Assembly: GCF_032118995.1 (NCBI RefSeq)
Contig: NC_092660.1
Coordinates: 18,586,501-18,650,500, forward strand
Length of the DNA stretch: 64,000 nucleotides
Direction of reading: 5' to 3'
Source of the DNA: Asterias amurensis
Lineage: Eukaryota > Echinodermata > Asteroidea > Forcipulatida > Asteriidae
Below are positions 723 through 57,660 of the stretch, piece after piece (within the stretch, counting starts at the first letter, position 1; every line of letters begins with the position of its first letter). A model generated the notes under the pieces. The model did not search any database, had not been told where the DNA came from, and saw only the letters and a program-made list of their open reading frames with translations. A program made the position numbers and the translations under genes.

Positions 723-13562
<12,840 letters not shown>

Positions 13563-17465: not shown

Positions 17466-17483
17466 CGAGACTCTCGACGCTGG

Positions 17484-18130
17484 TTGCGCCAACTCCATGG
17501 TTGCTGCACCCTTCCAATAATATGGTTTCACCCCTCCCCCTTCCACCCCTTCCAACCGGCCCACCTTCATAGTTGCAAAATTGTTGCATGCACCCGTCCA
17601 CATCCAGTTGCAACCCCTTCCACACGGATTGCACCCCTTCCACCTGGTATAAACTGTGGGCACCCTTCCAGCCTAAGGGTAACACCCCTCCCCATGGCTG
17701 CACCCACCCCAGGTGCACCCCTTTCACTCCCGTTGCACCCTTCCACACCCATGGTACCCTTCATGTCCCCTGTTGCACACCACCTCGGCTGCACCCCTCC
17801 AATCCCCCGTTGCACCCCTTCCATCACACCCTTCCACCCCAGCTGCACCCGTCCGACTCAACGGTTGCACCTTTTCACCCCATGCCCCCCCCCCCCCGTG
17901 GTTGATGCAACCTTCCACCTCACCACAGTTGCCCCCCCCCCCCCAACAGTTGCATGCGCCCTTTCACCACAGTCCCCCCCCCCCCCCCCCCCCCCGTGGT
18001 TGCACCTTTCTCTACCCATGGTTGCACCCTAGCTCTACGGTTGCACCCTTTCACCTCCATGGTTTGTAGAGAGAAAAGCTGCAACAGGCGACCACCCACC
18101 TCCGTTGTTGCACCATCAACCTCTCAAGAA
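17484..18130. repeat. C-rich degenerate minisatellite
   Basis: About 640 nt of degenerate TTGCACCCYTTCCACCCC-type units of roughly 20-25 bp, with pure C runs near 17884, 17932 and 17974 (about 22 C). The open frames across it on both strands are composition artefacts. The G-rich minus strand could form quadruplex or i-motif structures (inference). Confidence 0.8.
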
Positions 18131-30488: not shown

Positions 30489-30610
30489 ACCAGCAAGAGA
30501 CAAATGCACGATGAACCGCATAATGTCTCTTCACTGCGTGTTTCGAGCAACTGCCGTTCTCCTCTTGTCAGGTCTGTCAACATTCCCAATTGTGGTGTCT
30601 GCTTTAGATG
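30489..30610 (+). CDS. Receptor exon with start codon and signal peptide
   Basis: The acceptor CTTTCCTAG ends at 30488. ATG at 30511 starts MNRIMSLHC, followed by a hydrophobic stretch (AVLLLSGLSTFPIVVSA). The GTAAAG donor is in phase 1. Coding covers 30511-30610. Confidence 0.75.
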
Positions 30611-33600: not shown

Positions 33601-36600
33601 CAAAAACAAACAGAACTTAAAAATTAACAAACTTGTAATTTTGCAGCAAAACCCGAGCCTGTTAAGCTGGAATGCACAATCCGTAGTCCTGACGAGTATC
33701 GATGTAACTGGGTAGAAACAACGAACACAAATCTTCGGACAACTCATCATTTTCAGTTCCGAATGTAAGTCATCTCACAATGCTGCTGCAATGTAAGGGT
33801 CATGTCACACGAGGCAATTTACAAGCAACCAGTTCCAGGCAATAGGAAAGGCATTCACATTTCAATGTTAACATATTTTTCTTGTTGATGATAAGACAAG
33901 GTTCGAAGAATGACTCATGTGCCACCAAAGTGGTCCTGCGGCATGTGCTGCAGTTGGTTACCTCCAAGTTGCCTGTAAAAGTTGCCTCGTGTGACAAGGC
34001 CCTTAAACTTTGGAACGCTAGGTGGAAGACAAATCGTCACTGTTACCGGAAACTGTAAACCATTTTACCAAACTCCCACTCAGCCACACTTAGATTTGCC
34101 AATTTTTACATTGTATTACATAGTGCTGGCGCGGGGCCCAAAAACGACAACACTGCTTTTTGAGTTTTGATAAAGAGGTATTTTGTGTGACCTAGACAAA
34201 TTTTAGTTTTCACGAACAGACGCTCGTTTTTTTTACGCATTGGTTTGTACGTGACGCACTTCACACAGACCTCATTTCCACAATTTTCACAAAGGGAAAC
34301 TCAGGTTTAGCAGGTAATTACTCATTAAGCACTGTGATTAAAATAATAACATATTTGCCAGGGTTTAAATGTCAACGTTTAAATGGCAAACAGTGTCCCA
34401 AATAATTATTTAAAAATAACTTCAAATGTGGTTTTCTCATGAAAAATTTGCTGCAGGGGCAAAATTGCCTCTTAGTGAAAACAGTGGCAAAATGATAAAT
34501 TGCTATTAATTGTAAGAGTGATTGATTACCAATGTAAACCTTCCCTCTAAAACTGTTCTTTTTAGATTCAATGATGATAATTGGAGAGAGTGCCCTTGTC
34601 CAACTTGTGAGCCATATGCCTGTTTTATTGGAATCGCTCACAATAGCGGAATTCGACAAGAAGTCCGAGTCACCACGACAAATCCACTCGGTGAAGCCGT
34701 AACAACTCTGTCCTTCGACCCTTACAACGATGGTAGGTTATAAACCAACAAATCAGAATCTACCAATCTGTAGAGCTCTGACTATCCTTTATAAACAGCG
34801 CCAATACTAGCACTTTTCACACGCGGGAAGAAACCAGGTGTTACTGGGTCTTTAGAACACAAAGTTGTCAAATCCACATGGTGTGAATCTGCTCTGCATA
34901 AACAAAGGTCTATGGTTTTAATGAGGGAATAAAAGAGAGGCAACAAGGGTCTTGTTAGGGTCCTGGTTGTTTGATAAAGGACTGAGCCAAAGGCATTCAT
35001 CTGGTTGGGATACGAACCCACAACCTTTGCCATTATAGAGCACAGGTTTTACCGCTAGACCACTGAGATAGCCAGTAGCTAAAGGCAGTTCGAATCCTAT
35101 AGTTTAGCACCGGGTTCCACAGCAATTTTATAGACTTTATATTTGCTTTTTGTACAAAGAACATTGTTTGGTTTTAGCGGTACGCTCATACTTTCCTGAT
35201 GTCTGTGAAAAAATCACCACCGAGATTTGCCTAGTAGCTAGAGGCAGTTATTGTGACTGTTTTTTATATTTCATGAAAAATTGTATCTTTATCGATTGCC
35301 GCAGTCGTGGTTAATCCACCAAGAGACGTGATGGTGACTGCCCTGCTAACGGAGACATCCCTCAAGATAACCTGGTTCTTGCCTGATGAGTGGCACAGGA
35401 TTACGAACTTGTTAGAATACAGGCTGCAATACAAGAAGGCTGGATGCCAGACCAACCTCACATTTGGCTGTATGGAACAGGTAAAACAAATTTTGGACGG
35501 GGTGCCAAGTGCTCAGTCTAGCAAACCCAATTTCCTAAAGGCTTGTGGCCTAAAGCAAGATACTTTCGGATGAGAAATTTTTCATGCATAAGTCAGTTAT
35601 CAGATTTATGAGGGTAAAGGCCAAGTCATACTGCAGCAGTAACAAAAACAATAATGATCACGACGCAAAGAGAACACATTCTATTGGTTGAATTGCTCCA
35701 CATAGAATATGCACACGCTCATTCAACCAATAAAATGTGTTCTCTTTGAGTCGTGATCAGTATCGTTTTTGTTATTGCTGCATTGTGACTCGGCCTTTAT
35801 TGTCCCTTGATGAGGATGCTGCAGCTAGAGACGCCATTGGTACCTGCTGTCACCTAACTTAACAAGGAAGGGTTCAACTTTATTGTGAAAATATCCGTAG
35901 TTTTCGCTGTTTGATCAGCAAGTAGACACTGTATTGAGCTGAATCTTTCACTTGTGACTTTAAATGTATTTATTGTCCCCCATTGTGTCTCCATTGCCGA
36001 ATGATAATTTTCTGTATACGGAGCCAGAATCTGGAACAAACTTCCACAATACATCAGAGATACCACCTCACTGCATACATTCAAGACACTCCTGAAAGCT
36101 CACCTGTTTCAGGAGGTGTATCATCAATAACGTTTCTCCTGTTTGTGCCCATACATCAGTGCTTTCGAGCAAACTTTTGATTTAGGCGCTTTATCAATTT
36201 CTTTTGATTGATTGATTGAAAGTCCCCTTTTTTATTAAAGGGAAGGTACACGTTTGGTTATTACTCAAAACAAATTTTAACTTAAAAGTTGACTTGGTAA
36301 CGAGCATCGGAGAGCTGTTGATATTATAAAACATTGTGGGAAACGACTCGCTCTGAAATATTGTATTGTTTCTCACTAAAATAATGATAAATTTGTCCAA
36401 ACTATGGTGTTTTTTCTTTCATCATTTTCTCGCAACTTCGATCACCAATTGAGCCCAAATTTGCACAGGCTTGTTATTTTATGCTTATGGTGAGATACAC
36501 CAAGTGAGAACACTGGTCTTTGACAATTACCAAACGTGTCCTTCCCTTTAACGAGAAATTTATTTCACCAGGTTGTGGATGTAGGAAGAACCATCATCTT

Positions 36601-39600
36601 AGAGTACATACTGCAGGGCCTTGAGCCTTACACTGAGTATGCCATTCAGCTAGGTGCCAGGTACGGACTGGATGAGAAGAACTGGAGCGAGTGGACACCA
36701 GAGGAAACAGTCTACACACGACAGACATGTGAGTATGATTGTCCAAACCAGAGACTCTCATTGATCAAAAGTGAGCTAGATTAATTAACCACAGGGTGTA
36801 CCCTGCCTGCATGGCTTGAATAAAGTTAACGGTATGGCTTCTGACTGGCACCCCCAAACAAAGATATTGCCATCGTAGGGGTAGATAGCTCAGTTGGTAG
36901 AGCGCCGGGCCAGTTAATTCGGAGGTCGCTGGTTCAAATCCTGCACAAGTCAATTTGTCTTTGTTTAACCCAAAATCAAAAGTGAACTTGATAACTGTAC
37001 TAGCCAAGAACCCCATGAAGAGAAGACAAGGAAGGAAGTTCAAGTTTTTAGATGTGATGAGAGGAAAACCCCAGATAGTTATTCTAGGGAAAACCCACGC
37101 AGGTAGGGACTGAAAACCCAACCAACTAAGTGCCCCCGGTGGAATATGAACAGGGGTTTCAGAGGCAGAAGGTGAGGAAAGATATCAAGACACCATCCTT
37201 CTTCGGTCCGGTGTATTGTAAATTCTCGTTAAAGAACCCAGTACATTTATCAGAAAAAGAAAAGGTTTGCCCTGGTGTTCCTGGGTTGATTGACAGCATA
37301 TTGCGCCACATTAATACAAGACCTGGAACTTAGTAATTTTTAGGGCATTTTTGAGACCAGTCTTCTCACTTGGTGTATCTCAACGTATGCACAAAGTAAC
37401 AAACCTGTGAAAATTTGAACTCAATTGGTCGTTGAAGTTGCGAGATAATAATGGAAGAGAAATTGTGTGCTTTCAGATGCTTTATTTCAGGACCTCAAAA
37501 TCTAATTCTGAGGTCTCAAAATCAAGTTCAAATATTTCAGTGGAAAAATCTTTCTCTCTCTAAAACTACTTTACTTCAGAGGGAGCCGTTTTCTCACAAT
37601 GTTTTATACTACCAACAGCTCTCCATTGCTTGTTACAGAGTCAGTTTTTATGCTTACAATTATTATGAGTAATTACGGACAGTGTTCATTGCCTTTAATC
37701 AAAATCTCGTAATAATGACGGGAGTCGACTGTACATATCTAGTAATGCTTGTATTTTTTTTAAACTTCATTTAGCACCCTCCGGGATTGTTGGAAACCTT
37801 ACTGCTCATGAAGAGAACACTCCAGGTCATCCTTTCTTTAGAGATGTGAATCTTGTATGGAAGGTAAAAATAATAATAACTAATAATAATTATGGCTTCT
37901 TATATTGTGCACATGTCCAGCACTCAGTGACACTTCTGGCGCTGTAATATTTAGTATTTCCTGCAAGATGTGGAACTACGCATTTGAATTTTGAGACCTA
38001 ATCCTCAGATAGCACCATGGAGTGGTTTACAATGTGTTGTGGCGCAATTTGCTGCCGATCGGACCAGGAACACCGGGGCGTACCCCTTCTCTTTTCAATA
38101 AGTGCACTGGGTTCTTTTACATGCGTTACACAATACATGGGACCAATGGCTTGATGTCCCATCTGAAGGACGAAGCAATGGTTAAATGTCTGGCTTAAGG
38201 GCACAAGTGTCACAGCTGGTGACCGTTTTTTATTTAAATTTTGCCATCAAAGAGTTATATGTCCAAATACTAAAACAACAAAAATAAATAAACATGGAGA
38301 AATATTAAGTATTGGATGTGGGAGGAAAACCCATTCAATCAGGTAGGGACTGAAAACTCATTCCCCATGGAAGGTTCCAGTCTGAGGTAGGATTCAAACC
38401 AGGACCCACAGAGGTGAAAGGCGTGGAAAGAAACCACTGAGCCAACCTGGCCCCCACAGAATTGTCAAATTTTAGTTCGGTGGAAGGCATGTGATCATGC
38501 AAAATGAGTTGTTTATTTACCCAGGTCGTTTTCCTATTTTTTTTTCCTATTTGAAAAGAGCATATTCTATGCTTTAATAATGCTTTTAGAACCCCCATGT
38601 TGATACTATCTTGGTTCAAAAGTTATGAAAGTAGAAACACCAAGAGATGTGAGAGAACGAAACTGCGAAAAATAGGGTTTAAAGTCGAGTTGAAACTTCA
38701 TCCAGCACATTTACTTTCACCGCTGTTGGCTTGTCTTGGCTGGTTTTTCTCCACTGTTATTTCCGACAAATAACTCATTTAGCTTGACCACATTACAAAC
38801 CACTAAGCCAGCCCGACCTCCTTCAGAGTAAATTTATTTTGTTCCCTCTGTTGAACACAGGAATTGGAAGTCCAGAACCAAAATGGTATCATACTTGAAT
38901 ACAAGATAGAGGCTGTGAAGACAGAGGCTTCGGAGAACCAAGAGGTGCTGTTCTGGAGCTCCACAAGAACATGGTTTACCATTTCAAGTAAGTCATTTAA
39001 AGGCACTGGACACTTTTGGTAATTACTCAAAATAATTGTTAGCATAAAAACTTACTTTGTAACGAGCAATGGAGAGTTGTTGATAGTAAAAAACATTGTG
39101 AGAAACGGCTCCCTCTGAAGTAACATAGTTTTAGAGAAAGAAGTAATTTTCCAGATTTCAAGACCTCAGAATTATATTTTGCGGTCCCGAAATCAAGCAC
39201 CTGAAAGCACACAACTTCGTGTGACAAGGGTGTTTTTTCTTCTATTATTATCTCGCAACTTCGATGACCAATTGAGTACAAATTTTCACAGGTTTGTTAC
39301 TTTGTGTATATGTTGAGATACACCAAGTGAGAAGACTGGTCTTCGACAATTACCAATAGTGTCCAGTGGCTTTAAAAAGGGTCACGCTGCCTTTGGATTT
39401 GGATTTAATTCTCAATGCTCTTATTAGAGCCAACAAGAAGAGAGAAGACAGTGAAGAAATTTCAGTTTTAGATGTGGGGGAAAACCCCAGAGAAATTTTG
39501 CAAGGAAAATCATACAGGTAGTAGGGACTCTGAAAACCTGCAGTGCTCCCGATGGGATATGAACTGGGGGGCGAGGCGCTACACCACTACACCACTACAA

Positions 39601-42600
39601 AGAGCTCGCTGCGGTCGGAATGTGTGCAGCCTTTTACAGGCGCTGCGGTTCACCTCCATAGTTCTTCCACTGGAGGTGGGTGCAGTGCTAAGCAGATTAA
39701 TTTGAGCTTAGGGGATTAAGACTGGAGTTGAAACTCCTTCTGTTCCTTGCACTATGGTTAGAAGTATAGCAGGTTACGATAGTATGAAGCATTGTACAAT
39801 GAGTGAAAACAAAATGGACGAAGCTCTTGTAGACTATTTATGATCGTAAAGTTCGAGTAGGGGAATAATGGTGAACAAGTACCTTCCCTTGAATGTAAAT
39901 ACAAACTACTTATAGAAATTTTACAAATTTTCAGGCACTTTTTGTAAAATGGTTGTTGTTTTGCCTGGGCAGATAGAACTTTAAAAAAACTGTAAACAAA
40001 TTCATCACATTTTTTTCCTTACAGGGTTGTCAAAGTATTTTCCTTATCAGATCAAAGTTGCAGCGGTTAACCAAGCTGGCCCCGGACCGTGGGCTTCAGT
40101 ACAAATTTGGGATGAAACAGCAAGTGAGTAATAGGCACAGCAATCTTTAACTTCATGCACTGTTTTGTAAAAAAGTTGACATGGCATTTAGAATAACCGG
40201 TTTCTTTTATTTTTGGAAAAGGTAGCTGATTTTAACATAAAGACAGATCTTGCAAATGGCAGTCTTCTCCCAAATCCAAGCCCTGGGCCCAATTTTATAA
40301 ACCTGTTAGGTAGAAAATACTGCTTGACAAATATCTTTGCTAAGCAAAAATTGAGTGAGGCACCAGTCACAACAATGCAAACTTAATGTCATTTTGATTG
40401 GTAACCTAGTTCTGCTAAGCAACACTATTCTGTGCTTAGCAAGTGAAATTAATGAAGTTATGAACTCCACTCATATCAGTTTTACTCTCCATTTTTTTCT
40501 TTTAGCACCAGCCGCTCCGAATTGGGTCCAAGCTACTGCCCTGACGACAACTTCCATCAACGTGACTTGGGGGGCACCTAGTGAACCAAACGGTATCATA
40601 CAGAGCTACATTGTCCAGTGGAGAAAGAGCGACGAGAAATGGTAAGAAAAGTGAAAATATTCAGGCCTGATCACAAAGCATGGGCTTTGTCTATTGTATA
40701 GACCAATCTGTATGCCTAGAGGAACCTTGTCCGGGACAACCAGTGGGTATTCAAGTCCTGTCCTGGACAACAGCCATTAATTCACCTTGTTTGAAACTGG
40801 GTGTTAGAGAAAATTTAAAGGAACGTTACAGAATTGGTAAGAAACAAAAATCGTGAAGATCACAGATTTACATAAAACTTACACGGTCTAATGATGATGA
40901 TAGTTGACAACATCCCTTGAAATATATCTGTCTGAAATGATATATTTGATGAGAAATAAATAATCTAACTTCGCGTTTGGAGTTTATCGCTCAGTAAGCG
41001 TTTTATAAATTTTTATTTTGGCATCAGTGCAATGCAACATTTGTAATCGGTTTTTCACTATTCACTCGTGACTCAGATGCTGGCCGATCGATCTCAAACC
41101 TTTACAGGTTTGTCAGTTTATGTATATGGTGGTTTACATATAGTGCTTATACACTGCCAGCAACTGTTTTGTTAGCAAAAACCAATTCTGTAATGTTCCT
41201 TTAACCCTAACCCGAACTCTGAAGGGGTTTAAAATAAAATGTGTCTGAACACACTTTCAGTGAAGTTTTGCTTTCCCGTAATCGGAGCAAGTCAGCCAAG
41301 TATTAAACGTTTGCATCTAGTGCCTGGCTCGTCATAATCATTACACTTGCAAAATCTATCGAGGCAGGCACTGTTTCCACCAGTCTTTGTAATTCTCACT
41401 TTAAAGGAACACGTTGCTGGATCGGACAAGTTGGTCTATAAAAAGCGTTTGAAACCGGTTTTTTTATGAAATGCATATGGTTGGAAAGATGTTTTAAAAG
41501 GAATACAATGATCCACACAAATTTGTCTCAAAATTGTGTGGTGTTTCTTTTGCTTTGCGAACTAACATGGTTGGCCAGTTATGGGAGTAAAAAATTTGAC
41601 TCCCATAAATGGCCGACCGTGTTAGTTTACGAGGTTAAAGAAAAAAAATGCAATTTCAAGGCATATTTGTATGGATCATTATATTCTACTTTGAAAACAT
41701 CTTTCCAACCATATGCATTTTAAAACAAACGGTTATAAACGCTTTTCAAAGACCAACTCGACCGGTCCAAGGCAACATGTTCCTTTAAGGTCGAGGAAAA
41801 TTAAACCAAAATGTTCATTGTCTTTGCCCTTTGTTGCATCTTTCCCATTTCAGGCGATCGTACATGACTCTTAATGCAGCACGCCATTACCACGTACTTG
41901 ATCATCTAGATACCTACGTTCTCTACGAAGTGACCGTCCGAGCAAGGAATTCTCTGGGGGTTGGTGAAGTAGCCCTTGTAGAGGGTGGGAGCCGGACATT
42001 GCAAGGAGGTAAATCACTCTTGGGTTTTCCGGCGGCTAATTCACATCATTTCATACATTTTGGGGTTGAACAAAGAAAAATCTACTAGAATGGGATTTGA
42101 ACCTTAGGAAGCCACAGCGGAAATTTCAAGTAATCCATCCCGAGGAAAACTGACTGAGTAAATTTGAAATAGCTATGGGTTAAACAACGGTAAATTGACT
42201 AGAGTGGAGTTTGAACCTGCAACCGCTGGATTAAAGAAAAAATTAGAATTAAAATGATTTATTCAGCCAACGTCAAAAAGTTAAAAACCAAAAACATCGG
42301 AAATTGTAGTGCACCTCGACCTCTCTAGATTTTAAAATCACAAAATTACATTTAAAAACACTAACGAAGAAGATTAAAATATATTCACATAATATATAGG
42401 CTACAACATTAGCAGAAGACAAACTAGTTCCCATTGAAAAGCACGAACAGCATGAGGATAAAAACTATCGCTAAACCGCTTTCCTTTGAAATGCTTAAGA
42501 CGACGATTAGAAGGGAGAAATTGGAAATAATCAGCTGCTGGGTGGAACTCGTCCTGCATTATAGACCTAGTGCGTTTACACATTCTGTCACTATAGATTG

Positions 42601-45600
42601 ATTCAAGTGATGGCAGGCTAGCACCGATAATCCTCTCTGCTGACTGACAACAGAGTTCAACTTACGAAGATCACTAGCAGAAACACAACCAAACCAAACA
42701 AAAGATGGAAGAGTCAATAGATGCTTTCAACAATAAAGAAACTATAACAGTCGAGAACCTCCTTTTTTTAACCCCATTTTCCATTATACCCTCATGCTGT
42801 TTATGAGATGGAAATGTTGACTTGCCTCTCGCCTATGGAAGTTTATTGCTAATTCTCTAATGTCTAAAGTGAATCCCTCACTTTGAGGGGCTCACCAGGG
42901 CCCAATTTCATAGAGCTGCTAAGCAAAAAAATTTGCTTAGCATGAAATTTCTTCCTTTATAAAAACAGGATTACCAACCAAATTTTCACGCGTTTTTCAG
43001 GTTAAGCGAACACCATCTGAATACCAGTAACAAGAAATATGCAACAAATTGAAATTTGGTTTGTAATCCTGTTTTTATCAAGAAAGAAATTTTATGCTAA
43101 GCAAATTTTGGTGCTTAGCAGCTCTATGAAATTGGGCCCTGACCTTCTGATGTTAGGCAATGTATCATATCTCAAAAATATCGATAATAGCCTGCTCATG
43201 TCGCTCCTCGTCTTCTTTTACCTAACAGTTCCAGGCGCTGCCCCCTCCGGTCTCACAGTGAAACCTATTAATGACCAGCCAGACAGCTTGACCCTGACGT
43301 GGGAGCCTTTACCCCTCAACAGTATCAACGGTGACTTGCAGGGCTACCTGATTGGCTACTGCCAGAGTGAGAGCAGTTGCACAGGTAAGGGTTGAACCCC
43401 CCCAAAAAACCAGATAAAGGGAAATGTTATGTTTGTTGAAGGCACTTGACCAATTGGTAATTGTCAAAGACCAGTATTCTCGCTTAGTATATCTCAACTA
43501 AACATGGACTCAGTTGGTCATTGAAGTTGCATGAGAATCATCAAAGAAAAAACACCCTTGTTGCACAAATTTGTGTGCTTTCAGATGCCAATAAAAGGCT
43601 TCAGGCCTGAAGTCTGGTAATATTTGAGTGAAAATATACCTCTTTCGCAAAAACTACGTTACTTCAGAGGGAGCCGATTTTCACAATGTTTTACAACAGC
43701 TCTTCATATTGCTCCTTGTAATTGTTGTGCTAACAATTATTTTGAGTTATTACCAATAGTGTGCAGTGCCTTTAAAGTTAATGGCAATAATAACTGAATT
43801 TAGAAGTACAGCAGCTTTCGATAGTATAAAGCATTTTGAGAACCATTTCACTTTGAAGTAAAAATATATCAGTTTTTCTTATCCCCCACAATTTGAATCT
43901 GATGAGCATTACTGACAATATCTCTCAGATTGTGGGTTCGAGTCCCAGTTGTGGCACCTGTGACCTTAAGCAAGACACCTGAAGGATTATTACAGAATTG
44001 TTTTTGCTAGCCAAAAAGTTGATGGCAGTGTAAGCACTTTATGTTATCCACCATGTACATAAACTGACAAACCTGCAGAAGTTTGAGATCGATCCGCCAT
44101 CTGGGTCACGAGAGAATAGTGAAAAACCAATTACAAATTTTGCATTGCATCGATGCCAAAACAAAAATGAATAAAACGCTCACTGAGCGATAAACTCCAA
44201 ATGCGAATTAGATTTTTTATTTCTCATCAAATATGAAATTTCAGACAGAAATATTTCAAGGGATGTTTTCTACTATCATCATCGTTAGACCATGTAAGTT
44301 TTAGGTAAATCTGTGATCTTCACAATTTTTGTTTCTTACCAATTCTGAAATGTTCCTTTAACCATTATTGCTGCGTCCTTAAGATGGGGCACAAAAAATC
44401 CTGACAAGTGAAACTTTTCTCCTTTTTTCCAGGCGATTTTTTGCAACATAAGAATCTATCCAGCCCAGATGTTACTAGTAAAACCCTTGATGGTCTGGAA
44501 CCCTCTACCCAGTACTCAGTATGGCTAGCAGCTTACACATCAATTGGGCTGGGACCTGAATCGGACCACGTACTAGCAACAACCAGAAATGAAGGTAAGT
44601 TCTACAACTGGTTACCCTTTTGTCCTTTTTGCATAAATTGCATTCTGCTCTACCAGCCAGGCTCATGATACTCATGTCTACATCCTTACAGAGTGTGAAG
44701 GGGCTATTAACCCGAGTGTGTTGTGGCTGAGCGGATAAGAGCACCGAACTCAAGCTTTGGTGTTTCTGTTCAGCAGAGTGTGGGTTCGAAATCCCGGTCG
44801 TGACACTTGTTTCCCTGAGCAAGACACTTTACCATAATTGCTTCTCTCCACCCAGAGGTAAATGGGTACCTGTGAGGGCAGAGATGGTTCTTGTGGTTGG
44901 TTTAGCTTAGTGCGCGCTACATATTTGGCGACACAGGCCTGTATACTCCCCAGGGAGCTGAGATGGTTTAGGGAATAAATGGCCCATTGATGAGGGTGAC
45001 AATGTTGGAAGCGATTTGAGACATGGTGTACTAAAAAAAGAGCACTATATAAAAACCAAATATTATTATTTTTTTTTACAGGGTATAGCAACGTATAGCA
45101 AAGATTTGAACTTGTTTTCTTTTTTTCCTACAGCATCGGTGGTCGTCGTTGCGGCTGTGTTAGGTCCTCTGCTTATAGCGGTAATTATCGTGATAGTAAT
45201 AGTCTGTGTCGTCAGACAAGTGATCAACAGCCGCTCCATCCCGGACCCAAAAATTGCCAGAGATGTGGATGTCATGAAGATGAACAGCGTAAGTGAATAA
45301 AGCCACTCAAGCTTCCACTATCTTTGTCTATTTTCTTAAACACACACGTGGACTGGTTATTCGAAACTAAAAGCTTTTCTTTAATTTTTGATTCGCTTGA
45401 TTTAAAGACACTGGACACGATTGGTAATTGTCACAGACCATTCTTCTCACTTGGTGTATCTTAACAAACCTGAGCTCAATTGGTCGTCAAACTTGCGAGA
45501 TAATAATGAAAGAAAAAACACTCTTGTCACACAAAGTTGAGTGCTTTCAGATGCTTGATTTCAAGACCTTAAATTCTAAACCTGAGGTCTCAGAATCAAA

Positions 45601-48600
45601 TTCATAGAAAAATTTTTTTTTCTCGAAAGTACATCACTTCAGATGGAGCCGTTTCTCACAATGTTTTATTCCATCAACCTCTCCCCATTACTCGTTACCA
45701 AGTAAGGTTTTATGATAATAATTATTTTGAGTAATTACTGATAGTGTCCACTACCTTTAATAAGGAGTTTTTGTTGAATTTGGCTCTAAAAACCTATATA
45801 GAGTGTAATGAAATAACATTTTGGTATATCTCTTTGTTGTTTCTAAGACTGTGTATCTTTATCTTTCCAAAACACAGGGTATGTACCACTGTCAAATGGA
45901 AGAGGAAATCTTTGACAACATGCCCGTTGACGATTCACAGACTGGTCATTCACATCCCTTGGAGTCCGTCGTCATCAAAGACTCAAAGAAACAGACTTTC
46001 GAGTTCAGTCGTTCTGAGAGCAACGACAGTGGGTTTCCGCCATCCCCGGCAAGAAGTAGTGGAAACTTGGACTATTTGCGGGACAAGCTGAGTATCGGCG
46101 ACAATAATGACAGCGTCTTTGAAGAAGAGAATGGACAAATCCAAAAAGACATGCACAAGAGAAACGGTGGCTTAACCTCTCGAACGTCTCATAGTGACTC
46201 TGTTGGACCTTACACTATGGTAGGCGAGTTACCATCCTTTAAGATACCTGCATCTTCTGGTCTTGGCCCACCCTCTATGGAAGGCCAATATGTTGCGGAG
46301 ACCACATTGAAGGGGAGCACTACCTGTCGAACCGGAATTCCTTCCAGTCCATCTGTTGATGTATCGCCTTACACCCAGATGTCCACAGTGTTTACATCTT
46401 GTCCAGCATCTCGTTCAATTTCTGAGACACCCGCACAACAGGAAAACCAGAACAGAAACAAACTTTCAATAGTGGGCTTAAACAATAATCAAACTACCCA
46501 GATTAAAGAAGTCTCACCTTACACCCTGATGTCTGCTATGAGTTCTGTGCCTCACAGACAACCCAAGCGCTGCCAAGAGCCCTCAGTTGGTGCTTCCAAG
46601 TGTAAGAAGCAGACACACCACCTTGGCTCGTCTCCAACACTTTCAGTTCACTCACAAATGCTGGCGATGGAAGCCATTAAGAAAGATGCAGGTTGCCATA
46701 TTCAAAAATCTCCACCAGAATCGCCTTCAACTGTTTCACCCTACTCGAAGGTAGAAGACTTAAATCCTCCAAGCTTTTCAACCAATTCATCCAATAATTT
46801 GACGAACAGCTCAACACAGCCTGTTTCGCACTACATACAGATGCCAGAAGTGAATTTCCTGACGCCAAGAAAACCACAAACCAGTGAAAGTCAACAGGCT
46901 TCTCCCATGACTACAACAGATGTTCAAACTCACAAACCTCTACTTGTCGTGCCGCAACCAGTCTCGCCCTACATCCAGATACCTCCAGTGAATCCCATGC
47001 AAACTAAGGTTCCTCCTTCATGTGCTGTCGAAAGCTTCACAGGTAAAAAGCCTTCTGATTTGACAATACCTGCTGCAACCGAAACACTGATATCAGATAC
47101 TGCAGGCTCGCAACCACTTGACCCTCTGACTAAGCAACAAAATGGAATGTCCCCAAATGACTCTCCATCTGTCTTTCAACAAACTCTTTCACCTTACATT
47201 CAGGCGCCGGGAGTAAACGTCCTCCAACAAACTCGAGCCAAGACTGATCAACCAAAACAGCATGCTCCTGACCTGCCCAGCATTAATGAGGATTGTCCCT
47301 CATCTCTTCATACCCTGCAACAATCCTCATTACCATACATCCAGAAGCCAAGAATTGAGCAGACACAACATCAATCTGGTTATCAAGGAAAGCTTCCTCC
47401 TGCCACTAACTCAGCCATCACTCCTTTAGACTTATCACCTCCTGCGACACCTTACATCCTGATTCCAGATATAAATTCCCTTCAACTAACTACACATCAG
47501 AGTCAGGCAGCCAATCAGGATGCTTATAGTAACACTGACGGTCAAACAGCCCAGCAACAAATTGTTTCGAGCCAATCCAATCTGCAGACCCCTCGAACAA
47601 GTCAACCAGATATCATTCAGCAACAGAATTCATCTGGGGCAACCTCCAGGGACACTCCTGTTTCGCCACTGTCTGCATTACCTTATGATCACATGCCACA
47701 AACAAAACCAATTGAACTAAATGGATGTCATGTCAAAAAACCAGAAGCCCTACTGCCAGCCATTTCATGTGATAGCCAAACTGACAACTCTTCTCTTATC
47801 TTGCCACAAGCTGTATCCCCCTACATCGAGATTCCAGAAACACATACCACGCAACTGGCTCAACAGCAGGTAGAACAGCTTCTAAAGGAAAGCTATAGTG
47901 AAGGCTCAACTCAACTGCCTCTTCCACTACTTTCACAAACTGTTTCAGAACAAGGAGGTTCACACTTCGATCAGGAACCACAGATAGCGAGCATGCAACT
48001 CAGTCAACAACAGGCAACTCAACCTGAAGATTTCCAACCTGTTTCACCTGAGCTGGCGTCACACATCGTTCCAAACCCACAACAACCTGGATCCTCTAAC
48101 TTTCAGTTTCCTGAAACAAAAACACCACAACTGACAAGTCAAGTTAAGGAGCTTGCCCCTGGCATTGAGAACAATGCTCAAAGCTCTCAATCAGTTTCAC
48201 CTGAACCTGGATCCCCCTATGTTCAGGTTCCAGAACCACAAACCCAACCGCTAGTTCCACAGCAGGCAAGTCATTCTGAAGAACTCAATTCCAATAGTGG
48301 CTCAAGTAAGAACCAAACTCAACACCCTCAATCAGTTTCGCCTAAACCTGGATCCCCCTATGTTCAGGTTCCAGAACCAGGGACCTTGAAGCTAGGTCCA
48401 CAGCAGGCAAGTCATTCTGAAGAACTCAATTCCAATAGTGGCTCAAGTGAGAACCAAACTCAACACCCTCAATCAGTTTCACCTGAACCTGTGTCTCCCT
48501 ATGTTCAGGTTCCAGAACCAGGGACCCAACCGCTAGGTCCACAGCAGGCAAGTCATTCTGAAGAACTCAATTCAAGCAGTGCTTCTAGGGAGAATCAAAC

Positions 48601-50020
48601 TCAAAGCCCTCAATCAGTTTCACCTGAATCTGGATCACTCTATGTTCAGAATTCAGAACCAGATACCTTGAAGCTTGGTCCACAGCAGGCAAGTCATTCT
48701 GAAGAACTCAATTCCAGTAGTGGCTCAAGTCAGAACCAAACTCAACACCCTCAATCTGCTTCACCTGCACCTGGATCCCCCTATGTTCAGGTTCCAGAAC
48801 CAGAGACCTTGAAGCGAGGTCCACAGCAGGCAAGTCTTTCTGAAGGACTCAATTCCAGCAGTGGTTCTAGTGAGCACCAAACTCAATACCCTCAATCAGT
48901 TTCACCTGAACCTGTGTCTCCCTATGTTCAGGTTCCAGAACCAGAGACCTTGAAGCTTGGTCCACAGCAGGCAAGTCATTCTGAAGAACTCAATTCCAGT
49001 AGTGGCTCAAGTGACAACCAAACTCAACACCCTCAATCTGCTTCACCTGCACCTGGATCCTCCTATGTTCAGGTTCCAGAACCAGAGACCTTGAAGCGAG
49101 GTCCACAGCAGGCAAGTCATTCTGAAGAACTCAATTCCAATAGTGGCTCAAGTAAGAACCAAACTCAACACCCTCAATCAGTTTCGCCTAAACCTGGATC
49201 CCCCTATGTTCAGGTTCAAGAACCAGGGACCTTGAAGCTAGGTCCACAGGCAAGTCATTCTGAAGAACTCAATTCCAGTAGTGGCTCAAGTGAGAACCAA
49301 ACTCAACACCCTCAATCAGTTTCGCCTAAACCTGTGTCGCCCTATGTTCAGGGTCCAGAACCAGGGACCTTACAGCTTGGTCCACAGCAGGCAAGTCATT
49401 CTAAAGAGCTCAATTCCAGTAGTGGCTCAAGTGACAACCAAACTCAACACCCTCAATCTGCTTCACCTGCACCTGGATCCCCCTATGTTCAGGTTCCAGA
49501 ACCAGAGACCTTGAAGCAAGGTCCACAGCAGGCAAGTCTTTCTGAAGGACTCAATTCCAGCAGTGGTTCTAGTGAGAACCAAACTCAATACCCTCAATCA
49601 GTTTCACCTGAACCTGCGTCTCCCTATGTTCAGGTTCCAGAACCAGAGACCTTGAAGCTAGGTCCACAGCAGGCAAGTCATTCTGAAGAACTTAATTCCA
49701 GCAGTGGCTCACATGAGAACCAAACTCAAAACCCTAAATCAGTTTCACCTAAACCTGTGTCTCCCTATGTTCAGGTTCCAGAACCACAGACCCAACCGCT
49801 AGTTCCACAGGAGGCAAGTCTTTCTGAAGAACTCAATTCCAGTAGTGGCTCAAGTGAGAACCAAACTCAACACCCTCATTTAGTTTTACCTGAACCTGGA
49901 TGGCCCTATGTTCAGAATCCAGAACCAGATACCTTGAAGCTAAGTCCACAGCAGGCACGTCATTCTAAAGAACTCAATTCCAGTAGTGGCTCAAGTGAGA
50001 ACCAAACTCAACACCCTTAA
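30511..50020 (+). CDS. gp130-type class I cytokine receptor with a giant repetitive cytoplasmic tail, 15 coding exons
   Basis: The exons are 30511-30610, 32737-33027, 33647-33764, 34566-34732, 35305-35480, 36572-36728, 37775-37863, 38861-38987, 40025-40123, 40506-40641, 41854-42008, 43229-43384, 44433-44594, 45134-45288 and 45878-50020. All use GT/AG with compatible phases and give 2076 aa. The order is signal peptide (1-32), Ig domain (34-130), cytokine-receptor module D1 (C140, C150-x-W152) and D2 (W322-S-E-W-T326), three FN3 domains (337-644), membrane segment (about 646-671) and a Box1-like IPDP (680-683). The ectodomain order matches vertebrate gp130, whose family signals through JAK kinases and STATs at the plasma membrane. 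The tail of about 1,400 aa is far longer than known gp130 tails (roughly 280 aa in human). It carries about 24 SPY-type tyrosine sites, half of them in 13 tandem 47-aa repeats. The ligand is unknown. It may be the asteroid gp130/Domeless-like receptor, but orthology is not shown here. Confidence 0.88.
31335..31580. mobile_element. Head-to-head pair of tRNA-derived SINEs
   Basis: An inverted copy (31335-31440, box A CTACCAACTGAGCTATCTAG) is followed by a direct copy (31445-31580, TAGATAGCTCTGTTGGAAGAGC). The two share GGGAGACTGCCGACAT-type flanks, forming a large imperfect hairpin in receptor intron 1. Confidence 0.65.
31963..32328 (-). mobile_element. Family B MITE-like element, full length
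   Basis: It starts TAAAGCCATTGGACCCTTTCGG and ends CCGAAAGGGTCCAATGGCTTTA, a near-perfect inverted pair of about 22 bp. It lies in receptor intron 1. Confidence 0.75.
32358..32546. mobile_element. Family E palindromic element
   Basis: TTGATAAAAACAGGATTACC with AACCAAATTTCCAC is mirrored by GTGGAAATTTGGTTGGTAA with CCTGTTTTTATCAA. It ends TAGCAGCTCTATGAAATTGGGCCC. A second copy is at 42897. Confidence 0.7.
32737..33027 (+). CDS. Receptor exon: N-terminal Ig domain
   Basis: A 291-nt phase-1 to phase-1 exon. It has LHLNCTLSNVT (first Ig cysteine), a VDIVWYRG tryptophan and SSSYSCGF (second Ig cysteine). A single Ig domain at this place is typical of gp130-family receptors. Confidence 0.85.
33091..33477 (-). 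mobile_element. Family A MITE-like element
   Basis: It runs from CCTGGACTCTATTGGTAATTG to CCAATAGTGTCCACTGCCTTTA, in the intron after the Ig exon of the receptor. Confidence 0.75.
33647..33764 (+). CDS. Receptor exon: cytokine module D1, first part
   Basis: It encodes LECTIRSPDEYRCNWVE, the conserved C-x9-C-x-W start of class I cytokine-receptor domain D1. It ends in phase 2 at GTAAGT. At 118 nt it is recognisable only through this motif and its splice fit. Confidence 0.83.
33793..34005. mobile_element. MITE with about 25-bp inverted ends
   Basis: The ends AAGGGTCATGTCACACGAGG and CCTCGTGTGACAAGGCCCTT are inverted repeats. The interior of about 160 nt is non-coding. It lies in the intron splitting cytokine module D1. 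Confidence 0.65.
34566..34732 (+). CDS. Receptor exon: cytokine module D1, second part
   Basis: Four cysteines occur in a short span (WRECPCPTCEPYACF), enough for the further D1 disulphide, followed by beta-strand-like sequence (QEVRVTTTNPLGEAVTTL). Phase 2 in, phase 1 out. Confidence 0.82.
34985..35110 (-). mobile_element. tRNA-derived SINE fragment
   Basis: Inverted box B GGATACGAACCCACAACC and box A GCTAGACCACTGAGATAG. It shares the AGCTAGAGGCAGTTCGAATCC-type tail with the copy at 8935. Confidence 0.6.
35305..35480 (+). CDS. Receptor exon: cytokine module D2, first part
   Basis: FN3-like start PPRDVMVTALLTETSLKITW followed by LEYRLQYKKAGC, as in D2 of class I receptors. Phase 1 in, phase 0 out at GTAAAA. 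Confidence 0.83.
35615..35799. mobile_element. MITE with about 68-bp terminal inverted repeats
   Basis: TAAAGGCCAAGTCATACTGC at the left is mirrored by GTGACTCGGCCTTTA at the right. The match extends through AACAAAAACRAT and GATCACGAC to AAAGAGAACACATT. Almost the whole element is palindromic. It lies in the intron splitting D2. Confidence 0.75.
36230..36552 (+). mobile_element. Family A variant (ACACGTTTGGTTATTACTC ends)
   Basis: AAAGGGAAGGTACACGTTTGG at one end and CCAAACGTGTCCTTCCCTTTA at the other form near-perfect inverted ends. The inner blocks match family A. It ends 20 nt before receptor exon 6 (36572). Confidence 0.7.
36572..36728 (+). CDS. Receptor exon: cytokine module D2, WSxWS exon
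   Basis: It contains GLEPYTEYAIQLGARYGLDE followed by NWSEWTPEE. WSEWT is a one-residue variant of the WSxWS signature of class I cytokine receptors and sits just before the last D2 strand, as expected. Confidence 0.87.
36865..36975 (+). mobile_element. tRNA-derived SINE (AGATAGCTCAGTTGGTAGAGC family)
   Basis: TAGATAGCTCAGTTGGTAGA and GGTCGCTGGTTCAAATCC form boxes A and B, followed by the TTTGTTTAACCCAAAATC tail of this SINE family. Confidence 0.7.
37020..37145. repeat. Interspersed repeat (AAAACCCACGCAGGTAGGGACTG)
   Basis: The block TTTTTAGATGTGATGAGAGG with ACCCACGCAGGTAGGGACTG recurs at 38305-38460 and 39425-39600, all in introns of the receptor's first FN3 domain region. Confidence 0.55.
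37335..37700 (-). mobile_element. Family A MITE-like element
   Basis: Inner blocks AGTCTTCTCACTTGGTGTATC, GCTTTCAGATGCTTTATTTC and GAGTAATTACGGACAGTGTTC identify the family. One terminal end is missing. Confidence 0.65.
37775..37863 (+). CDS. Receptor exon: FN3-1, first part
   Basis: An 89-nt exon (SPSGIVGNLTAHE to VNLVWK), phase 1 in and 0 out. It gives the A-C strands of the first membrane-proximal FN3 domain. Confidence 0.75.
37985..38225 (-). mobile_element. tRNA-derived SINE body (CTAGCGGTTAAGAGC family)
   Basis: Inverted relative to the copy at 4925: CAATGTGTTGTGGCGCA, then GTTACACAATACATGGGACC, then AAGCAATGGTTAAATGTCTG. The tRNA-like head is mostly lost. Confidence 0.6.
38861..38987 (+). 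CDS. Receptor exon: FN3-1, middle part
   Basis: A 127-nt exon with GIILEYKIEAVKTEASENQE and TWFTIS, the central strands of FN3-1. Phase 0 in, phase 1 out. Confidence 0.75.
38996..39378 (+). mobile_element. Family A MITE-like element, near full length
   Basis: It runs from AAAGGCACTGGACACTTTTGG to CCAATAGTGTCCAGTGGCTTTA. It is about 380 nt and begins within 15 nt of the donor of receptor exon 8. Confidence 0.75.
40025..40123 (+). CDS. Receptor exon: FN3-1, last part
   Basis: A 99-nt exon with YFPYQIKVAAVNQAGPGPW, the characteristic F-G strand pattern of an FN3 domain. Phase 1 on both sides. Confidence 0.8.
40283..40450. repeat. Family E relative
   Basis: GGGCCCAATTTTATAAACCTG at the start, GCTTGACAAATATCTTTGCTAAG in the middle and CTGTGCTTAGCAAGTG at the end. 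It ends shortly before receptor exon 10. Confidence 0.5.
40506..40641 (+). CDS. Receptor exon: FN3-2, first part
   Basis: It encodes TPAAPNWVQATALTTTSINV, WGAPSEPNGIIQSYIVQW. The pattern PxxP..SxxVxW..PxxxNGxIxxYxV is classical FN3. Phase 1 in, phase 2 out, splitting a Trp codon. Confidence 0.85.
40815..41206 (+). mobile_element. Family D MITE-like element (AACGTTACAGAATTGG ends)
   Basis: AAAGGAACGTTACAGAATTGG and CCAATTCTGTAATGTTCCTTT are inverted ends of a 390-nt element. An inverted copy lies at 43985-44363 in the same gene. Confidence 0.75.
41402..41790. mobile_element. Family C MITE-like element (AAAGGAACACGTTGC ends)
   Basis: TAAAGGAACACGTTGCTGGATC and GGCAACATGTTCCTTTAA form inverted ends. 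Inner arms (ATGGTTGGAAAGAT against ATCTTTCCAACCAT) extend the palindrome. The sister copy is at 52345. Confidence 0.75.
41854..42008 (+). CDS. Receptor exon: FN3-2, second part
   Basis: It completes FN3-2 with LDHLDTYVLYEVTVRARNSL followed by GVGEVA. Phase 2 in, phase 1 out at GTAAAT. Confidence 0.85.
42060..42240. repeat. SINE-tail fragments
   Basis: Two pieces with TGGGATTTGAACC and GGAGTTTGAACCTGCAACC resemble inverted box B sequences, with GGTTGAACAAAGAAAAATC tails. They look like remnants of the AGATAGCTCAGTTGG SINE family. Confidence 0.45.
42897..43141. mobile_element. Family E palindromic element
   Basis: GGGCCCAATTTCATAGAGCTGC is mirrored by GCAGCTCTATGAAATTGGGCCC at the far end, with long inner arms around ACAGGATTACCAACC. 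About 245 nt. Confidence 0.8.
43229..43384 (+). CDS. Receptor exon: FN3-3, first part
   Basis: It encodes PSGLTVKPINDQPDSLTLTW and NGDLQGYLIGYCQSESSCTG, the A-C' strands of a third FN3 domain. Phase 1 on both sides. Confidence 0.85.
43432..43782 (-). mobile_element. Family A MITE-like element
   Basis: GGCACTTGACCAATTGGTAATTG at one end and CCAATAGTGTGCAGTGCCTTTA at the other, with family A inner blocks. It lies within the intron that splits FN3-3. Confidence 0.7.
43985..44363 (-). mobile_element. Family D MITE-like element
   Basis: Inverted copy of the 40815 element. It contains TTTGAGATCGATCCGCCAT and ends CCAATTCTGAAATGTTCCTTTA about 70 nt before receptor exon 13. A small SINE fragment (43915-43985) abuts it. 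Confidence 0.7.
44433..44594 (+). CDS. Receptor exon: FN3-3, second part
   Basis: It encodes LDGLEPSTQYSVWLAAYTSI followed by GLGPES, the E-G strands of FN3-3. Phase 1 on both sides. A SINE follows in the next intron. Confidence 0.85.
44715..45070 (+). mobile_element. tRNA-derived SINE, apparently full length
   Basis: The head GTGGCTGAGCGGATAAGAGC (box A) and GTGGGTTCGAAATCCCGG (box B) is followed by a 250-nt body and the tail CACTATATAAAAACCAAATATTATT. Full length with a terminal ATT repeat, and only about 65 nt before the transmembrane exon. Confidence 0.75.
45134..45288 (+). CDS. Receptor exon: transmembrane segment and Box1
   Basis: About 25 hydrophobic residues (VVVVAAVLGPLL to VIVCVV) are followed by basic RQVINSR and IPDPK. 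IPDP next to the membrane matches the proline-rich Box1 that binds JAK kinases in gp130-type receptors. Phase 1 in, phase 0 out. Confidence 0.85.
45403..45766 (-). mobile_element. Family A MITE-like element
   Basis: AAAGACACTGGACACGATTGG to CTGATAGTGTCCACTACCTTTA, lying between the transmembrane exon and the cytoplasmic-tail exon of the receptor. Confidence 0.75.
45878..50020 (+). CDS. Receptor exon: 1380-aa cytoplasmic tail
   Basis: A single 4143-nt exon after acceptor CCAAAACACAG, in phase 0, starting GMYHCQMEE. YHCQ (Tyr699) is a YxxQ motif, the STAT3 type in gp130. Downstream are spaced PY motifs: PYTMV, PYTQM, PYTLM, PYSKV, HYIQM, PYIQI, PYIQA, PYIQK, PYILI, PYDHM, PYIEI, then 13 PYVQ-type sites in a 47-aa repeat array. 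The rest is rich in Ser, Gln, Pro and Thr and is probably disordered. TAA at 50018 ends the frame. Confidence 0.87.
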   Translation, partial: GMYHCQMEEEIFDNMPVDDSQTGHSHPLESVVIKDSKKQTFEFSRSESNDSGFPPSPARSSGNLDYLRDKLSIGDNNDSVFEEENGQIQKDMHKRNGGLTSRTSHSDSVGPYTMVGELPSFKIPASSGLGPPSMEGQYVAETTLKGSTTCRTGIPSSPSVDVSPYTQMSTVFTSCPASRSISETPAQQENQNRNKLSIVGLNNNQTTQIKEVSPYTLMSAMSSVPHRQPKRCQEPSVGASKCKKQTHHLGSSPTLSVHSQMLAMEAIKKDAGCHIQKSPPESPSTVSPYSKVEDLNPPSFSTNSSNNLTNSSTQPVSHYIQMPEVNFLTPRKPQTSESQQASPMTTTDVQTHKPLLVVPQPVSPYIQIPPVNPMQTKVPPSCAVESFTGKKPSDLTIPAATETLISDTAGSQPLDPLTKQQNGMSPNDSPSVFQQTLSPYIQAPGVNVLQQTRAKTDQPKQHAPDLPSINEDCPSSLHTLQQSSLPYIQKPRIEQTQHQSGYQGKLPPATNSAITPLDLSPPATPYILIPDINSLQLTTHQSQAANQDAYSNTDGQTAQQQIVSSQSNLQTPRTSQPDIIQQQNSSGATSRDTPVSPLSALPYDHMPQTKPIELNGCHVKKPEALLPAISCDSQTDNSSLILPQAVSPYIEIPETHTTQLAQQQVEQLLKESYSEGSTQLPLPLLSQTVSEQGGSHFDQEPQIASMQLSQQQATQPEDFQPVSPELASHIVPNPQQPGSSNFQFPETKTPQLTSQVKELAPGIENNAQSSQSVSPEPGSPYVQVPEPQTQPLVPQQASHSEELNSNSGSSKNQTQHPQSVSPKPGSPYVQVPEPGTLKLGPQQASHSEELNSNSGSSENQTQHPQSVSPEPVSPYVQVPEPGTQPLGPQQASHSEELNSSSASRENQTQSPQSVSPESGSLYVQNSEPDTLKLGPQQASHSEELNSSSGSSQNQTQHPQSASPAPGSPYVQVPEPETLKRGPQQASLSEGLNSSSGSSEHQTQYPQSVSPEPVSPYVQVPEPETLKLGPQQASHSEELNSSSGSSDNQTQHPQSASPAPGSSYVQVPEPETLKRGPQQASHSEELNSNSGSSKNQTQHPQSVSPKPGSPYVQVQEPGTLKLGPQASHSEELNSSSGSSENQTQHPQSVSPKPVSPYVQGPEPGTLQLGPQQASHSKELNSSSGSSDNQTQHPQSASPAPGSPYVQVPEPETLKQGPQQASLSEGLNSSSGSSENQTQYPQSVSPEPASPYVQVPEPETLKLGPQQASHSEELNSSSGSHENQTQNPKSVSPKPVSPYVQVPEPQTQPLVPQEASLSEELNSSSGSSENQTQHPHLVLPEPGWPYVQNPEPDTLKLSPQQARHSKELNSSSGSSENQTQHP
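48188..50017 (+). repeat. Coding minisatellite: 13 copies of a 141-bp (47-aa) unit
   Basis: In-frame units of the form QSVSPEPGSPYVQVPEP, 12-13 variable residues with PQQASHSEEL, then NSSSGSSENQTQHP. Twelve units are 47 aa; the eighth lacks one Gln (46 aa), giving 610 aa. Ten units keep YVQV, two have YVQN and one has YVQG. High nucleotide similarity points to recent expansion by unequal exchange. Confidence 0.92.
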
Positions 50021-50290
50021 TCTGCTTCACCTGAACCTGGATCCCCCTATGTTCAGGTTCCAGAACCAGAGACCTTGAAGCTAAGTCCACAGCAGGCACG
50101 TCATTCTAAAGAACTCAATTCCAGTAGTGGCTCAAGTGAGAACCAAACTCAATCTGCTTCACCTGAACCTGGATCCCCCTATGTTCTGATTCCTGAACCA
50201 GAGACATAATAGCAAGGTCCAAAGCAAACAAACCAGTTTAAAGAACTCGGTTCCAGCAATGACTTGAGTGAGAATAAAGCTTGAAACCCT
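50018..50290 (+). pseudogene. Repeat copies beyond the receptor stop codon
   Basis: The frame after TAA (50018) stays open for 62 codons to the next stop at 50207. It encodes one almost complete and one partial further repeat (SPYVQV, then SPYVLI). A decayed third copy (around 50213-50290) follows. The TAA stands where other copies have CAA (Gln), so these look like cut-off coding copies. Confidence 0.75.
50273..50278 (+). terminator. Candidate polyadenylation signal of the receptor gene
   Basis: AATAAA about 255 nt after the stop codon, within the last decayed repeat copy. Longer 3' UTRs are possible. Confidence 0.25.
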
Positions 50291-57200: not shown

Positions 57201-57660
57201 TAAAACTGCTGGACTTAGGGCCTACCCCTTGTGATTTTTTCATTTTTTGGCCTATATTTGATAAAACTGCTGGACTTACCCCTTGTGATTATTCTTTATA
57301 TTTCTGCCTAAATTTGATAAAACTGCTGGACTTACCCCTTGTGATTTTTTCATTTTGTGGCCTATATTTGATAAAACTGCTGGACTTACCCCTTGTGATT
57401 TTTTCGTTCTTCGGCCTAAATTTGATATAATTGCTGGACTTACCCCTTGTGATTTTTTCATTTTTCGGCCTAAATTTGATAAAACTGCTGGACTTACCCC
57501 TTGTGATTTTGGGTCTTTAATTGATAATACTGCTGGACTTGCCCCTTGCGACTTTTTTCCTTTTTCGTCCCAAATCTGATTAAACTGCTGGACCCTTGTG
57601 ATTTGTTTCCATTTTTCGTTCTCAATTTGATACAAAACTGCTGGACTAATAATACTTCTT
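54260..57660. repeat. 54-bp minisatellite, about 63 copies
   Basis: The unit is GATAAAACTGCTGGACTTAC, CCCTTGTGATTTTTTCATTT, TTCGGCCTAAATTT. Copies at both edges are diverged and those inside nearly identical. Because 54 is a multiple of three, long open frames appear in several frames on both strands (18-aa period); none has start, splice or domain support. Blocks of about 0.9 kb repeat at an offset of 1366 bp (for example 55340-55816 and 56706-57182), and a 224-bp block is doubled at 55641-56092. Confidence 0.92.

Follow-up and report, generated by a model that had tools for sequence, protein, structure and literature searches.

A predicted gp130-type receptor of the sea star Asterias amurensis with a long, tyrosine-rich tail that ends in a tandem array

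The receptor gene and its class

Analysis of the window, a 64,000-nucleotide stretch of Asterias amurensis contig NC_092660.1, showed a receptor gene on the + strand whose 15 coding exons lie between 30511 and 50020 (Table 1) and encode, in this order, a signal peptide, an Ig domain, a cytokine-receptor module, three FN3 domains, a transmembrane (TM) helix, a Box1-like IPDP motif and a cytoplasmic tail. The exon phases are compatible from the Ig domain to the tail, the FN3-1 exons having been added from the match to the NCBI protein and inspection of their borders; FN3-1 exon a was recognised solely via that protein. A signal-peptide scan pointed to a single locus, 30511, and this exon, whose end was placed from a GT donor and the phase, was later confirmed by the NCBI protein. 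Between the TM and tail exons the reading frame is kept (phase 0 on both sides), and the borders there are canonical AG/GT.

Table 1. Features of the receptor gene, in window coordinates (P0001 and P0002, NCBI models of A. amurensis and A. rubens)
Feature	Position	Strand	Evidence and remarks
Signal-peptide exon	30511..30610	+	First Met of MNRIMSLHC..., end in phase 1; matches P0001 aa 27-60
Ig domain exon	32737..33027	+	Pfam ig above cut-off; phases; P0001
Cytokine-receptor module domain 1, 5' half, with CX9CXW	33647..33764	+	
Cytokine-receptor module domain 1, 3' half	34566..34732	+	Phases; P0001
Cytokine-receptor module domain 2, 5' half	35305..35480	+	Phases; P0001
Cytokine-receptor module domain 2, 3' half, with WSEWT	36572..36728	+	
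FN3-1 exon a	37775..37863	+	P0001 aa 364-392 at 37777-37863; AG/GT borders
FN3-1 exon b	38861..38987	+	P0001
FN3-1 exon c	40025..40123	+	fn3 E 0.0034, below cut-off; P0001
FN3-2 exon a	40506..40641	+	fn3 E 4.9e-8; phases; P0001
FN3-2 exon b	41854..42008	+	Phases; P0001
FN3-3 exon a	43229..43384	+	Phases; P0001
FN3-3 exon b	44433..44594	+	fn3 E 3.4e-6; phases; P0001
TM helix and Box1-like IPDP exon	45134..45288	+	Phase 0 end; joined to tail in P0001 and P0002
Cytoplasmic tail exon	45878..50020	+	1380 codons and stop, 32 Tyr
Older, diverged tail part	45878..48187	+	17 Tyr, Y-x-x-hydrophobic sites at irregular spacing; 56% of tail
DSGFPPS, phosphodegron-like	46025..46045	+	Fits DSGx(2-3)[ST]; urchin relative has DSGVPPS
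Tandem array up to stop	48188..50020	+	13 units, twelve of 47 aa and one of 46; one Y-V-Q site each
Array continuation beyond stop	50021..50209	+	62 codons in frame, two more sites, then TAA

The A. amurensis protein in NCBI (P0001, 2102 aa, 'LOW QUALITY PROTEIN: uncharacterized protein') agrees with the window at all of the 770 residues searched (100% identity), and its tail (aa 723-2102) maps to it unbroken and ends at the same stop, 50018-50020. Apart from introns, a single break was noticed: two bases are skipped at 30497-30498, on the upstream side of the putative start Met (30511), and this probably explains the LOW QUALITY mark. In A. rubens, the model LOC117297550 (P0002, 1710 aa) makes the identical TM-tail exon join; both proteins are predicted NCBI gene models. 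A separate single-exon gene for the tail was rejected, given that the join is present in the models of two species. By eye, apparent copies of a dispersed element (...ACACTGGACAC...GGTAATTGTC...) lie in the introns of the gene, including 45400-45760 and 33090-33420.

In a PDB search with the ectodomain (query without FN3-1), gp130 was matched over query residues 36-389 (3l5h, E 2.7e-20) and again through its module (1bqu, E 1.7e-13), with LIFR, OSMR, IL-6Ra and CNTFRa as lower-ranking matches. Receptor phosphatase F outscored gp130 in this search (1.4e-29), and contactins scored similarly, via their FN3 repeats. We rejected a receptor phosphatase or a Dscam-like adhesion protein, as these matches are to FN3 repeats and the protein has no phosphatase domain and a single Ig domain. 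No protein-kinase or protein-phosphatase catalytic family was detected in either Asterias model (Pfam, E 0.001), and the Pur_ac_phosph_N matches in both fall in the FN3-like region. The Ig exon matched Lep_receptor_Ig at E 5.6e-6, below the cut-off of that profile; among the acorn-worm relatives described below, Glandiceps protein P0016 reaches the LIFR_D4 cut-off and P0017 that of Lep_receptor_Ig (Pfam).

The motif WSEWT is found in both Asterias proteins, and W[SGA]xW[STA] in all 12 proteins examined. The module signature given for class I cytokine receptors in the available text of PMC1963337, CX(9-10)CXWX(26-32)CX(10-15)C, is present in its strict form in five of the 12, A. rubens included; A. 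amurensis departs from it at the last spacing (9 versus 10-15), and a looser cysteine pattern of our own making is present in the remaining seven. These signature tests covered 12 of the 13 fetched proteins, omitting P0024, which begins inside the FN3 region. With an N-terminal Ig domain, FN3 domains between module and membrane, and a hydrophobic TM helix followed by a Box1-like proline motif, IPDP, that fits the JAK1 Box1 pattern hydrophobic-P-x-P (PMC7444064, available in part), the protein is, by sequence, a class I cytokine receptor of the gp130 type. The assignment of ectodomain, membrane segment and Box1 made in the earlier note thus stands, on the match to 3l5h, WSEWT and IPDP.

Vertebrate gp130 (IL6ST) and the group 2 receptors LIFR, OSMR and G-CSFR share with it the Ig domain, a CX9CXW module, a WSxWS-type box, FN3 domains, the TM helix and a Box1-like PxP. 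The same Ig-CHD-FN3-TM-Box1 topology has been reported for Drosophila Domeless and the Ciona dome/gp130-like receptor (PMC1963337), and the available part of that paper makes no mention of a giant tail for either. IL6R-like receptors of echinoderms and hemichordates were reported in a 2026 survey (PMC13203501), whose text lacks the word 'Asterias' and whose available passages are silent on tail length.

The cytoplasmic tail and its tandem array

The tail is free of stops from the acceptor at 45878 to the TAA at 50018-50020, giving 1380 aa with 32 Tyr. The other five frames of its non-repetitive part (45878-48186) have 26-47 stops each, and the longest stop-free run is 769 codons, versus a maximum of 257 in 500 first-order Markov sequences of the same length and make-up. 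Frame, phases (0/0) and the identical join in two NCBI models all agree with the proposal that one open exon of 1380 codons is spliced to the TM exon. The tail is also unusually long, as had been claimed: the longest tail of a human class I receptor, that of IL-4Ra, has 575 aa, less than half as many, according to the available text of PMC7444064. The 32 Tyr, the tandem array and the single YxxQ likewise set it apart from vertebrate gp130 and the group 2 receptors. Disorder-promoting residues make up 62.6% of the tail, a composition that suggests a flexible chain.

What the earlier note had overlooked is that the last 44% of the tail, with 15 of the 32 Tyr, is a tandem array (48186-50226), whose in-frame repeats run on past the stop. 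Tandem Repeats Finder (TRF) reported a 141-bp unit in 14.6 copies with 87% matches. There are 15 units in all, 13 before the stop and two after it, each with Y-V-[QL]; YVQ occurs 13 times in the tail, and one minisatellite unit accounts, through its copies, for 13 of the 24 spaced sites. All unit lengths are multiples of 3, and the sites are 44-47 aa apart. Because most sister units have CAA at the position of the stop (Q in 11 of 13, K or H in two), and the post-stop frame, which ends SASPEPGSPYVLIPEPET, resembles the A. rubens C-terminus, SASPEPRSPYVQVPEPETL, the tail in the A. amurensis assembly is probably two sites short. The in-frame stop inside the array may reflect a genuine truncating allele or, alternatively, a mistake in the assembly.

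Differences among 12 full-length units of the 15 comprise 17 synonymous and 44 replacement distinct changes, a dN/dS-like ratio of 0.97, and look near neutral; the motif window is no more than one of the four best conserved of the 47 in the units. Outside its motif sites, the older part bears little likeness to the unit. When segments of the older part were compared with the profile of the young units, three of ten in A. amurensis (5.4, 7.0 and 13.1 bits) scored above the best of 200 shuffles (4.2), as did some in A. rubens (10.3, 8.5, 11.5 and 4.4 bits); the whole-sequence score of the older part of A. amurensis against this profile is negative (-12.8). The segment scores hint that all older sites may descend from a single unit. 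To judge from these repeats, the tail is one that has been lengthened via tandem duplication of a one-site minisatellite unit.

Counts of tyrosine motifs agree with much of what had been noted from the letters. The 'about 24' PY sites correspond to 21 literal PY, or 24 with SHY, SLY and SSY added. The statement that most of them fit S-x-Y-x-x-[IV] was slightly generous: the pattern is present, with a strict match at 13 of the 32 Tyr, about half of the 24. YxxM occurs four times (shuffle mean 0.4) and YxxQ once, as stated, the latter being below expectation (shuffle mean 3.8). There is no YxxP in the A. amurensis tail, which is below shuffle expectation, and no YxxL in either Asterias tail. The loose STAT5 pattern Y[VLTFIC] fits 24 of the 32 Tyr (shuffle mean 7.4), Y..[LMVIF] 19 (5.6), [ST]PY 17, the loose SOCS pattern 14 (1.5) and the ITIM-like pattern 14 (1.8), none of which was reached in 1000 shuffles; YxxV accounts for 12. 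These whole-tail counts overstate independence, as the array units are copies. The motif is non-random in the older part as well as in the array: in the older part alone, Y[VLTFIC] fits 11 of 17 Tyr (mean 4.9, reached by 2/1000 shuffles), Y..[LMVIF] nine (3.5, 1/1000) and [ST]PY seven (0.4, 0/1000), and the ITIM-like excess is weaker (four versus 1.0, 21/1000).

Asterias rubens, sea urchin and acorn-worm relatives

The A. rubens array consists of four complete young units plus part of a fifth, and in one of these units Phe replaces Tyr. Unit number thus differs between the gene models of the two Asterias species, 15 (two of them post-stop) versus about five. Counted from the end of the helix, the A. 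amurensis tail has 1405 aa and 32 Tyr, and that of A. rubens 1011 aa and 23 Tyr. All 11 selected motif Tyr of the older part are common to the two species; no excess constraint was found on the motif flanks between them (71 of 77 kept versus 629 of 690 elsewhere, Fisher p 1.0).

Beyond Asterias, the nearest receptors among the matches listed were LOC100890386 of the sea urchin Strongylocentrotus purpuratus and proteins of the acorn worms Saccoglossus, Ptychodera and Glandiceps, with no other sea stars, and no brittle stars or sea cucumbers, among these matches. The urchin relative likewise runs from the TM helix into a long Tyr-rich tail, with 28 Tyr in 729 aa from the helix end (26 in 721 by a later start), but its sites are of other patterns, e.g. 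AYMKFG and GYVKLG. Both tails carry DSG[FV]PPSP, at a depth of about 50 residues in Asterias and of about 100 in the urchin, and this element fits the phosphodegron pattern DSGx(2-3)[ST] (PMC7444064, available in part); the count of this pattern in Asterias is within chance (137/1000 shuffles reach it).

Ten acorn-worm tails, of the 13 tails tabulated from the helix end, have 282-866 aa and 5-30 Tyr. Arrays were noticed in two Glandiceps proteins among them, P0017 with 13 DDY[LTS]RVS units 31-36 aa apart and three YLPIS units, and P0016 with a shorter run of [DS]DYTAVG-like sites. Their units are unrelated to that of Asterias: the Asterias unit profile found no segment above 1.6 bits in the urchin and two Glandiceps tails, which is below the shuffle maximum. 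In 12 aligned units of the P0017 array the Tyr block is the best conserved of 27 windows (mean entropy 0.29 versus 0.82 for the rest). A tree of 12 ectodomains joined P0017 with the array-free P0015 and P0016 with P0018 (both 100/100), although P0018 is an isoform X2 that may be cut short, so that an array-free sister for P0016 is uncertain; the placement of urchin and Asterias in this tree is unsure, since long branches meet there. Related acorn-worm receptors appear to have grown arrays as well, probably on two occasions and at the very least on one.

The counts of motif classes cover 11 of the 13 tails, P0018 and P0024 being omitted. An excess of Y..[LMVIF] reached by none of 1000 shuffles was seen in both Asterias proteins, both Glandiceps array proteins and one Ptychodera protein; in the urchin it was reached by 5/1000, and in the remaining five tails it is weak or absent (16 to 519 of 1000). 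Y[VLTFIC] fits 17 of 30 Tyr in P0017 and 16 of 21 in P0016 (0/1000 shuffles each). The chance of a Yxx-hydrophobic site in each of three random windows of matching lengths is ~0.09 (the product of three values), so the convergence of the units is not significant by itself. A G/S-Y-V-P element recurs, by eye, near the C-terminal end of the urchin tail (P0004) and of several hemichordate tails, and is possibly an older shared docking site.

A putative docking strip and its alternatives

We give about even chances to the reading that the Asterias gp130-type receptor, with its low-complexity and probably disordered tail, is a polyvalent SH2-docking strip. Going by what is known of the family, ligand would drive dimerisation, with JAK on Box1; many of the [S]PY[VIT]x[VIM] sites would become phosphorylated, and each spacer of ~47 aa would display one site for an SH2 protein. 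This partner would most likely be a STAT5/6-type STAT, and SHP-2 and SOCS could share its sites, as judged from a published motif table, the sites of gp130 and the branch to which the STATs belong. The class I motif table of PMC7444064, in the part available, gives Y[VLTFIC] for STAT5 (called promiscuous, with pYxxL in the text) and YxxQ for STAT3, and also lists the loose SOCS pattern, YxxPhi endocytosis and the DSG degron; in gp130, YXXQ serves STAT3 and YXXV serves SHP-2/SOCS3 (PMC1963337), and the STATs of invertebrates are placed in the STAT5/6 branch (PMC13203501, available in part). The Asterias sites fit both the loose STAT5 pattern and the YxxV pattern. The number of docking sites would be set by the minisatellite, and plausibly signal gain or duration with it, because the tail grew by duplication of a one-site unit and unit number differs between the models of the two species. 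Counting against the docking strip are the lack of the stricter STAT5 pattern YxxL in the Asterias tails, the near-neutral unit differences, the unconstrained motif flanks, the stop within the array and the A. rubens unit with Phe for Tyr. The polyvalent scaffold proposed in the earlier note is in keeping with the motif grammar and with what is seen in the relatives; the sites also fit YxxPhi and SOCS/SHP-2 patterns, however, and 13 of the 24 are copies of a unit whose differences look near neutral. Nor is the design, which that note called unusual, confined to the Asterias gene, given the Tyr-rich urchin tail and the two Glandiceps arrays.

Several of these points would equally follow from neutral growth of a minisatellite, in which the older part works and the C-terminal array is a functionless coding VNTR that expands and contracts. 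The dN/dS-like ratio of the units, their differing number in the two species, the stop and the Y-to-F unit all agree with this; however, Tyr is kept in 15 of 15 A. amurensis units (the search pattern demanded Y-V-[QL], and the spacings of 44-47 aa exclude a missed unit), all unit lengths are multiples of 3, and the P0017 array keeps its Tyr block while the spacers vary. We consider neutral growth unlikely. An inhibitory tail, in which mainly SHP-2/SOCS3-type YxxV/I/M sites were multiplied into a brake or phosphatase sink, would account for the 12 YxxV, this being the SHP-2/SOCS3 site of gp130 (PMC1963337, available in part), and for the excess of loose SOCS and ITIM-like patterns over the whole tail. 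In the older part alone, however, the ITIM-like excess shrinks to the level given above, P0017 and P0016 have only one and three such sites (reached by 756 and 95 of 1000 shuffles), and a receptor with brakes alone would still need a STAT site; this reading seems rather improbable.

A further possibility is that the sites signal endocytosis and thereby determine how fast the receptor turns over, YxxPhi being a class I internalisation motif (PMC7444064, available in part) that 19 of the 32 Tyr fit. The DSG degron-like site common to Asterias and the urchin relative would suit such a role; the recurrent S-P before the Tyr and the Q/P after it, on the other hand, lie outside that motif. One YxxPhi motif is normally enough for internalisation, which also speaks against a sorting array, and we regard it as very unlikely. 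Least probable of all is that the tail exon was mis-joined or comes from another gene: the LOW QUALITY label invites this suspicion, but the sole break noticed lies well away from the tail, the join recurs in the A. rubens model, which has no such mark in its listing, the exon phases fit, and the urchin protein makes the same passage from TM helix to Tyr-rich tail.

The docking strip would resemble in its working the multi-site docking proteins IRS and Gab/DOS, cytosolic adaptors whose flexible strip bears numerous spaced Tyr sites, from which it would differ in being the receptor's own tail, enlarged by minisatellite duplication. New here are the tail that, as read from its repeats, was grown by a minisatellite, the unit number that differs between the models of two species, and the apparently separate acorn-worm arrays; a literature search, consisting mostly of titles and the beginnings of abstracts, returned no cytokine receptor described as having tandemly arrayed tyrosines, and the available parts of the papers found say little of the cytokine-receptor tails of echinoderms and acorn worms. 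Tentatively, docking-site number in the gp130-type receptors of these animals may be an evolvable minisatellite dial: one-site units would have been amplified independently in Asterias and in two Glandiceps paralogues, species and perhaps individuals would differ in valency and STAT output, and the A. amurensis stop would be one allele. Class I cytokine receptors are usually pictured with just a few docking tyrosines; a tail with two dozen similar sites, of which half sit on a repeat of variable copy number, would constitute a natural experiment on docking-site number and cytokine signal strength, for which the Asterias tail supplies concrete peptides and length variants.

Elsewhere in the window, an ORF at 23928-24191 (+) weakly matches an EF-hand (E 3.5e-4, below cut-off), and a Pro/His/Thr-rich low-complexity ORF at 17466-18032 (+), with short imperfect repeats nearby, had no Pfam match at E 0.01. 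A run of ORFs resembling scavenger-receptor cysteine-rich (SRCR) domains occupies 723-12778 on the - strand; all three that were tested match Pfam SRCR (E 3.5e-30 or better). Downstream of the receptor gene, at 54413-57647, lies a satellite-like array of ~59.5 copies of a 54-bp unit, in an AT-rich stretch with strong AT skew.
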